A stretch of 27,637 nucleotides of DNA from IMG/VR virus record IMGVR_UViG_3300008117_000237, positions 1 to 27,637 of that record, one strand, 5' to 3'. Each line of letters starts with the position of its first letter. The stretch's first letter is position 1. The notes below the pieces were generated by a model. It did not search any database. It saw only the letters and a list, made by a program, of their open reading frames with translations, and was not told where the DNA came from. This stretch comes from a virus. Of this stretch, positions 1 through 27,637 are shown in pieces. The translations under genes and the position numbers were made by a program.

Positions 1-246
1 GTCGCGGATAATCGCCTTACGGTTCGGAACTTCGACGTATCCGTTCGGAGACTTTACGTACATTGTCTCCTCTACTGCTTTCCACGAGAAGAGGCGTCGT
101 CGGACGTCTTCGAGGGGAATCGCGCCGTCGTAGTGATTCGGTTCTTCGCTCTGAAGGTCAGCGCGATAGTGCCAAGCGTTACCGCGCTTCTCCGTAAAGC
201 CGATAAGCATATTTTTATTCAGGTAATCGAGAGTTTCTCGACTCAT
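1..246 (-). CDS. DUF932-type phage/plasmid protein, N-terminal 82 codons (cut by window edge)
   Basis: This gene starts at ATG 246 and stays open to base 1, so only its beginning is present. The protein begins MSRETLDYLNKNMLIGFTEK and continues with an RGNAWHYR segment and an LEDVRRRLF segment. I recognise this opening from the DUF932 (TIGR03299, phage/plasmid-like) family, which is common in actinobacteriophages and usually 300-400 residues long. The biochemical role of the family is not established. The start codon overlaps the stop of the preceding gene as TAATG, and AGAAGGAG lies just upstream, so the start is well supported. Family assignment rests on remembered N-terminal similarity, not a search. 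Confidence 0.8.
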   Translation of the reverse strand, partial: MSRETLDYLNKNMLIGFTEKRGNAWHYRADLQSEEPNHYDGAIPLEDVRRRLFSWKAVEETMYVKSPNGYVEVPNRKAIIRD

Positions 247-452
247 TAGTTTCTCCTTCTATCGTTTTGGATTAAGTTATAAGTTAAAGCGGCAGTAATC
301 GACGCGAAGAAAATAAAGCCTTCTACCGAAGGTATCGGCTCCGTTCCTTCTGCTTCTAAGCCGCCAGCGCAGGCGAGCGCTCCGAAGAACGCGATAGCGG
401 TTACGACGATTTTCGTACGTGTCCACTTCTGCCAGTTCGTTACTCGAATCAC
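246..452 (-). CDS. Small two-helix membrane protein
   Basis: A 68-residue protein with two hydrophobic stretches, roughly residues 14-31 (IVVTAIAFFGALACAGG) and 45-60 (GFIFFASITAALTYNL), separated by a short acidic loop, with charged ends. This fits a small inner-membrane hairpin protein. The start is GTG at 452, overlapping the previous stop as GTGA, and the stop overlaps the next ATG as TAATG. It is therefore translationally coupled on both sides. I recognise no family. A holin role is possible on topology alone, but it sits far from the endolysin gene, so I do not assign it. Confidence 0.65.
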   Translation of the reverse strand: MIRVTNWQKWTRTKIVVTAIAFFGALACAGGLEAEGTEPIPSVEGFIFFASITAALTYNLIQNDRRRN

Positions 453-26548: not shown

Positions 26549-26847
26549 CTGCGGTGTTCTCTCGCGCCTCGTCGAGAGTTACAGGAGCGGTGCGCTGGTA
26601 GTAGGGGTGACGTCGGTTCTCCCGTTAGTACGTGGTCTGCGGTGAATGGGTCGTCTGGTCGTGCTCCTTCGCCGCATATCCAGCAGGCTTCGGCGTTCTC
26701 TCTTACTGCTTTCGCTCTGGTCTTATAGGTTCCTTTGTAGTGAGGACGCGTCGCGTTTCGTACTGCTTCTCGTATCTTCGTACACGTGTCGCACCTGCTG
26801 GAGTTCGGCGTTAGTTGTCCGCAGTTTAGACAAGGCTTCTTAATCAT
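26545..26847 (-). CDS. HNH endonuclease
   Basis: A 100-residue protein. A zinc knuckle (CLNCGQLTPNSSRCDTC) leads to CWICGEGARPDDPFTADHVL, followed by PTSPLLPAHRSCNSRRGARE. ADHV supplies the catalytic His, and the His-x3-Asn part of the beta-beta-alpha-metal motif is HRSCN. HNH proteins next to the terminase genes of HK97-like phages assist in cleaving DNA during packaging, and this position fits. It is coupled by ATGA to the CmoA-like gene upstream. Size and motif leave little doubt on the class. Confidence 0.87.
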   Translation of the reverse strand: MIKKPCLNCGQLTPNSSRCDTCTKIREAVRNATRPHYKGTYKTRAKAVRENAEACWICGEGARPDDPFTADHVLTGEPTSPLLPAHRSCNSRRGAREHRR

Positions 26848-27497
26848 TTCTCTATTATGAAGCCTGAGAACTCTCCGAATCGAAAGAACTCGTAGTAGAC
26901 GAACGGGAAGATATCGCGGCTTATAGGTCGCTGGATTCCCGACAGGCTGAGTTCCTTCTGGAGGATTTCGTTCGCGTCTACGCCGCTCGCTACCTTTCCT
27001 GCGAGGGTAAGGCGGCGGTAGATAGTGCCGATATAGCGAGAGGCGTCTTCGGTTTTATCTACGACGATTAGCGCTCCTCCTACGTTGAGGTTGTCGTATA
27101 GGCGGCGGAGGTAAGGCTTTCGTTCTGCTATCGGTAGGAACATAAGCACGAGGAAGAGCGTCGCGACGTCGAACGGTTCGTAGTCGTAGTCGAGTACGTC
27201 GGCTAGTTCGAAGCGTCCGTATCCGTCGAAGAGTTCCTTCATCTGCGGAGAGTTATCTATAGAGACGGCTTCGCAATTACGCGCTTTCAGGGAATCGGTT
27301 AAGAGGCGCGTTATGTTTCCCGTCGAGGCTCCAATGTCGTAGAGCCTTCCGCCTTCGGGGAGGTAGTGCCTAGCGATATGCGCTACGGCTCCTGCTACGA
27401 GGTCATAGAAGGGTAACTGTTCCCGTACGTGCCGCTCGAAGCCTGCCGCTACGTTCGCGTTTTTAAACGTCCAGTCACGCGGTATCTCGAAGGTCAT
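26844..27497 (-). CDS. CmoA-like class I SAM enzyme (carboxy-SAM synthase homologue)
   Basis: A 217-residue Rossmann SAM-binding protein. The N-terminal half follows CmoA closely as I remember it: RDWTF (7-11), VREQLPFYDLV, LYDIGASTGNITR (motif I, 52-64), CEAVSIDNSPQM (75-86), then a LFLVLMFLP segment, LNVGGALIVVDK and EILQKE. CmoA makes carboxy-SAM from SAM and prephenate. The protein is about 30 residues shorter than E. coli CmoA. The family's C-terminal SQKR appears here as LQKE, so substrate or activity may differ. Its ATG overlaps the stop of the C5 DNA methyltransferase gene, pointing to joint action. The alternative is an ordinary methyltransferase. Confidence 0.75.
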   Translation of the reverse strand: MTFEIPRDWTFKNANVAAGFERHVREQLPFYDLVAGAVAHIARHYLPEGGRLYDIGASTGNITRLLTDSLKARNCEAVSIDNSPQMKELFDGYGRFELADVLDYDYEPFDVATLFLVLMFLPIAERKPYLRRLYDNLNVGGALIVVDKTEDASRYIGTIYRRLTLAGKVASGVDANEILQKELSLSGIQRPISRDIFPFVYYEFFRFGEFSGFIIEK

Positions 27498-27637
27498 TAG
27501 GACGCCTTTCTTAGTATCTCGTTGCGGACGGTTTCCGCGATTCGTTTCATCATTAGCGGCGGTACGGAACGTCCGATTCGTTCGGCTCGCTCTCTATAGG
27601 TTCCTGTTAGTTCGAAGTCAGCAGGGAAGGAGCATAA
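27497..27637 (-). CDS. C5 cytosine DNA methyltransferase, C-terminal 46 residues (cut by window edge)
   Basis: The visible end reads SFPADFELTGTYRERAERIG, RSVPPLMMKRIAETVRNEIL, then RKAS and TAA, in a frame open to base 27637. FP.DF.LTGTYRERAERIG.SVPPLMMK.IAE is the motif IX-X region of C5 DNA methyltransferases, in which motif X normally reads GN(S/A)VP and contacts SAM. Here the Asn is Arg (codon CGT, 27571-27569). The catalytic Cys and target-recognition domain lie outside the window. The stop overlaps the CmoA-like ATG (TAATG). Modified cytosine would protect phage DNA from restriction. Confidence 0.82.
   Translation of the reverse strand, partial: LCSFPADFELTGTYRERAERIGRSVPPLMMKRIAETVRNEILRKAS

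Follow-up and report, generated by a model that had tools for sequence, protein, structure and literature searches.

The CmoX fragment and the overlapping CmoA gene

The window, by which we mean the whole 27,637-base linear IMG/VR virus fragment analysed here, ends inside a minus-strand gene (27497-27637) of which the C-terminal 46 codons and the stop remain (LCSFPADFELTGTYRERAERIGRSVPPLMMKRIAETVRNEILRKAS*), the 5' part lying beyond the window edge where the contig end cuts the gene. The 46 residues match the end of C5 cytosine methyltransferases (PF00145, E 0.0027; PHROG 116, E 3e-7), and their motif X reads AERIGRSVPP, with an arginine in GRSVPP (codon CGT, 27571-27569, minus strand) where ordinary C5 methyltransferases have an asparagine. 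Sharing a single base with the stop codon of this gene (TAATG at 27497), a second minus-strand ORF (26844-27497) encodes a 217-residue protein with the sequences DWTF, YDIGASTG and IDNSPQM. It is a real CmoA homologue and a predicted carboxy-SAM synthase, the homology being evident from profiles (TIGR00740, E 2.4e-20; PHROG 4752, E 2.3e-50), from the match to an experimental structure (E. coli CmoA 4gek, E 1.6e-17) and from the fold, the top PDB matches of its AlphaFold model (pLDDT 87) being CmoA 4iwn and 4gek (TM 0.79-0.82). Both the Arg-type methyltransferase end and the adjoining CmoA-like gene with its one-base overlap, as claimed in the initial annotation, are therefore borne out. A short ORF and then terminase-like genes follow. 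The gene pair is not a product of chance, since the CmoA-like protein recurs on 60 other viral contigs, with an Arg-type C5 enzyme beside it on 35 of them.

What does the complete enzyme look like? The full methyltransferase gene, which the initial annotation had recommended obtaining, is present intact in the near-identical phages L002-L005, for example at L003:4898-6001 (PF00145, E 4.2e-56). The catalytic part of the gene is missing from the window; the intact homologues of L003 and L005 show GSPPC there, the SPPC motif. The best PDB match of the intact protein is 8YF3 (E 3.8e-66), the crystal structure of SpCmoX, followed by HaeIII (1e-22) and HhaI (about 4e-21). It is 39% identical to SpCmoX and falls with it into one supported group, and in the alignment arginine meets arginine, which makes the window's CGT codon equivalent to SpCmoX Arg350. 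The gene order in L003 is DUF932-type gene, small ORFs, ParB-domain protein, CmoX, CmoA, short ORF and terminase. As the window's left end (1-249, minus strand) falls inside the DUF932-type gene that in L003 precedes ParB-CmoX-CmoA, the contig looks like an opened-up genome, which suggests that only about 4 kb of the window phage are missing.

SpCmoX is the enzyme of Synechococcus phage S-B43, whose CmoA and CmoX make 5-carboxymethylcytosine (PMC12783734, Nat Commun, December 2025). In its crystal structure Arg350, at the position of HhaI Asn304, contacts the cofactor carboxylate; the wild-type enzyme accepts carboxy-SAM as its only cofactor, and CmoY then adds glycine to the carboxymethyl base (PMC12783734). 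The M.MpeI variant N374K, as cited in the same paper, likewise uses carboxy-SAM by virtue of a basic residue at the motif-X asparagine; it is engineered and has a CpG target, whereas the window enzyme is natural. The hypothesis of the initial annotation, in which the phage makes its own carboxy-SAM for an Arg-type C5 enzyme, is well supported, the same mechanism having been demonstrated in S-B43; it is right in kind, but already published (PMC12783734).

The window pair is thus, to judge from its sequence, very probably a further member of the known CmoA-CmoX system, with the activity predicted accordingly. Like S-B43, it sets CmoA beside a C5 enzyme with SPPC (in its intact relatives) and motif-X Arg; unlike S-B43, where the order is CmoA-CmoY-CmoX, it is of the ParB-CmoX-CmoA type (an order seen in L003), its CmoX and CmoA genes overlap, and no CmoY was found. 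The closest record in the phage collection, Moraxella phage Mcat8 (KR093632), has the same ParB-CmoX-CmoA order next to terminase and a CmoA 52% identical to that of the window, but its motif X reads GRMVAP and its proteins are annotated merely as hypothetical. With the bacterial CmoA/CmoB pathway to tRNA cmo5U the window shares the CmoA fold and most SAM-binding residues, whereas CmoB is missing from it, the partner is a DNA C5 enzyme and Arg199 is replaced by Glu. A compilation of 5,615 candidate CmoX sequences drew on IMG/VR as a partial source (PMC12783734); the window fragment would fail the published SPPC filter because the SPPC part is absent, while its intact relatives pass. What the window adds to this DNA-modification system, first described in December 2025, is a compact phage of about 31 kb, apparently without a hypermodifying ligase.

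Motif-X arginine and CmoA among CmoX relatives

Does the arginine go together with CmoA? We scanned with three seeds, CmoX, a divergent C5 enzyme (L016) and an Asn relative, recorded for each match its motif X and whether the locus also contains CmoA, and merged the matches at 90% identity. In 75 of the 79 Arg clusters among the CmoX relatives the locus includes CmoA; of the four that lack it, a single one is flanked by 3 kb on either side. Three CmoX-like SPPC enzymes carry Asn (L201:906-2168, L207:1606-2952) or Cys (L354:245-1198) instead, reading WARLGN or WARLGC as against WERLGR, and no CmoA was found on their whole contigs (8-29 kb, incomplete). Such relatives are natural cofactor-switch controls and offer a natural test of the motif-X rule, in which the Asn side comprises few cases, because the contigs are incomplete and the clusters only three. 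Where Asn clusters do have CmoA in the locus (three cases), they are second C5 enzymes of genomes that also hold an Arg enzyme; Asn is the motif-X residue of such second C5 enzymes in CmoA phages. The initial annotation had named an arginine equally common in enzymes without a CmoA neighbour as a finding that would speak against it; the comparison came out in its favour. As a scan with the canonical C5 enzyme L006 gave only two loci, this control covers the relatives of CmoX rather than all phage C5 enzymes. An alignment that mixed C5 enzymes proved too diverse for scanning.

The arginine is not universal, since Staphylococcus phages (vB-SscS-F1 and SPbeta-like; L066:8494-9501, L067:7690-8688) pair CmoA with a HhaI-like C5 enzyme whose motif X contains Gly (VVGGVIN), possibly another solution for a bulky cofactor. 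A divergent C5 lineage (L016:5023-5991 and L230-L309; L016 and 79 relatives) has the motif ERCGRT and immediately precedes CmoA in almost every locus. With GFPC in place of SPPC it would fail the published filter, and its members are candidate CmoX enzymes of another lineage. Placing all Arg-type C5 enzymes in a single clade was rejected (p 1.5e-5) in a test that is ill-posed, the Asn relatives nesting within the SPPC group; with proper outgroups, the comparison of one against two origins of the motif-X Arg gave an AU p of 0.43, and we therefore do not claim convergence.

Proposed product and cofactor of the window pair

What base would the window pair make? We assign a probability of about 0.88 to the reading that its genes are a CmoA-CmoX pair making 5-carboxymethylcytosine. 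Gene identity, gene order, the arginine, family membership and co-occurrence are our own results and the chemistry is taken from PMC12783734; from these we infer the activity, the target sequence and a protective role. The CmoA homologue would convert SAM to carboxy-SAM by carboxylation, using prephenate as known CmoA enzymes do. The C5 enzyme would form the usual covalent Cys-cytosine intermediate and, because its motif X has Arg instead of Asn, would accept carboxy-SAM, placing the carboxymethyl group on cytosine C5 of the phage DNA. The modification would probably serve resistance to host restriction, and 5-carboxymethylcytosine itself may be the final base.

Alternatively, the carboxymethyl base could be an intermediate that is subsequently amidated, either by a host enzyme or by a phage ligase not recognised as such, comparable to the addition of glycine by CmoY in S-B43. 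Many CmoX contigs do carry ligases (PMC12783734), and an Asn_synthase-type ligase is present on the contigs of the relatives L015, L042 and L054. However, our search for a CmoY-type ligase found no Asn_synthase domain (PF00733) in the window, L003 (30.7 kb), L004 (32.6 kb), L009 or L061, on contigs that may be incomplete and with a profile that would miss other ligase families, and in L003 the stretch from the DUF932-type gene to CmoX contains no ORF resembling a ligase. We consider such a further step unlikely; as no CmoY was found, plain 5-carboxymethylcytosine may be the end product.

A second alternative concerns the cofactor. In the window's CmoA homologue, the E. coli SAM-binding residues Tyr39, Asp62, Gly64, Ser66, Asp89, Asp117 and Phe137 are kept. 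Asn132 is not, being Phe in the window and Leu in SpCmoA; across the window's CmoA subfamily this residue has become Phe/Tyr, and Gln136 has become Met, both changes lying near the pocket. Arg199, which forms a salt bridge to the carboxylate in E. coli CmoA (PMC3663124), is replaced by Glu or Asp in 61 of 61 subfamily members, by Glu in the window. Together with a TIGR00740 score (73.3 bits) under the curated NCBIfam cut-off (193.3), these substitutions would suit a protein that makes a different sulfonium cofactor, and hence puts another group on the base. Yet SpCmoA, just 21% identical to the window protein, has the same Glu, likewise lacks Asn132 and still makes carboxy-SAM (PMC12783734); as this proven enzyme also falls under the cut-off (115.6), the cut-off does not decide for phage CmoA, and the Arg199 salt bridge is evidently not required there. 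Furthermore, the partner enzyme retains its carboxylate-binding Arg, and subfamily members and Arg199-keeping CmoAs serve the same two partner types. A different cofactor is thus quite improbable. The initial annotation had entered as a caveat that the conserved Arg of SQKR is Glu here: the substitution is real, but it is no argument against carboxy-SAM synthesis, and a loss of CmoA function through it was rejected on the same evidence from SpCmoA.

Least probable is an ordinary SAM-dependent 5-methylcytosine enzyme next to a CmoA homologue engaged in tRNA modification or another process, for although the C5 protein is homologous to DNA methylases and tRNA cmo5U is the classical destination of CmoA, the motif-X Arg is present and tracks CmoA, the closest match is an enzyme whose wild type takes only carboxy-SAM (PMC12783734), and no CmoB was found. 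Specifically, TIGR00452 had no match in the window, in L003 and L004 or in six further phage and plasmid records; with CmoB missing from the window and two near-identical phages a tRNA role is unlikely, and we rejected it for the window CmoA.

PMT and other contexts of the CmoA subfamily

Carboxymethylation of cytosine by CmoX, the reading we prefer for the window, covers one of two settings in which this CmoA subfamily is found. Loci collected with CmoA as the seed contain exactly one of CmoX or a second protein, PMT, in 102 of 106 cases, and never both. The 60 loci from IMG/VR divide into 35 with Arg CmoX, 24 with PMT and one, on a cut contig, with neither; the 46 from bacterial genomes (prophages) divide into 21, 22 and three, again with none that has both. 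When PMT was the only seed, so that CmoA played no part in the selection, 79 of 80 loci (24 of 25 clusters at 90% identity) proved to have CmoA, which was always downstream and on the same strand, and none of the 80 had an Arg C5 enzyme; by comparison, homologues of the window CmoA occur in only 29 of 50,697 phage records. On 14 of 16 long PMT contigs there is no C5 methylase at all. In a quick tree of CmoA the partner switches at least eight times, and E. coli Arg199 is kept in some PMT-linked CmoAs.

PMT, of about 505 residues, combines ParB-fold domains with a class I SAM-methyltransferase domain. The N-terminus of PMT matches ParB_N (PF02195) and its whole length phrog_5475, of 'unknown function'; in structure searches the AlphaFold model resembled class I SAM methyltransferases (E about 2e-4) as well as ParB/Noc, but no C5 enzymes, and its sequence contains a SAM-type VLDFGAGH and an invariant PK-QK-H stretch. 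In most loci, though not all, PMT is followed by a small HAD-like gene; the product of this HAD-like gene may not be a phosphatase, since D-x-N/H-x-T replaces DxDxT. The resulting series of a ParB protein, PMT, often the HAD-like gene, and then CmoA, without CmoX, is seen in L041:3579-5521, L064:1-3952, L310:7193-10274, L311:91-3382 and L312:7172-10326. It forms a tight module that is represented in phages of Gordonia, Pseudomonas and Aeromonas. Complete records with PMT and CmoA are those of Gordonia phage Evaa, Pseudomonas phage SM1, Aeromonas phage HJ05 and Rhizobium plasmid p7, in none of which a C5 methylase or CmoB was found; HJ05 and p7 additionally encode an Asn_synthase-type protein. 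A scan with the PMT of SM1 returned SM1 itself as the only match.

These observations tip the balance modestly towards a scenario in which the window's CmoA subfamily serves two interchangeable systems, the second being a structurally unrelated carboxy-SAM-using transferase that acts most likely on phage DNA. That PMT would transfer a carboxymethyl group, and that DNA would receive it, is suggested by its association with CmoA and its domain make-up. PMT appears to represent a second family of putative transferases, so far undescribed, that is linked to the same carboxy-SAM synthase: the open-access literature held nothing relevant on the family or on modified DNA in SM1-like phages, which is no proof of novelty. 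If PMT does use carboxy-SAM, the carboxymethylation of phage DNA is not confined to cytosine C5 enzymes. No adenine N6- or cytosine N4-carboxymethyltransferases were found with CmoA in the published survey (PMC12783734), which makes PMT a concrete candidate for other chemistry, in phages that are already in culture.

Two bacterial contexts stand apart. In Polynucleobacter bastaniensis (L381:1754-8383), a CmoA of the subfamily adjoins an asparagine-synthase-like gene within an apparent surface-sugar cluster, with neither CmoX nor PMT, and the carboxy-SAM made there may go into modifying a surface sugar. Two Verrucomicrobiota genome bins hold six CmoA loci each (L385, L386, L389, L392, L411 and L414 in the first; L388, L391, L393, L394, L397 and L400 in the second). 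An Arg CmoX is present in nearly all of these loci, and each bin looks like a carrier of many related prophages.
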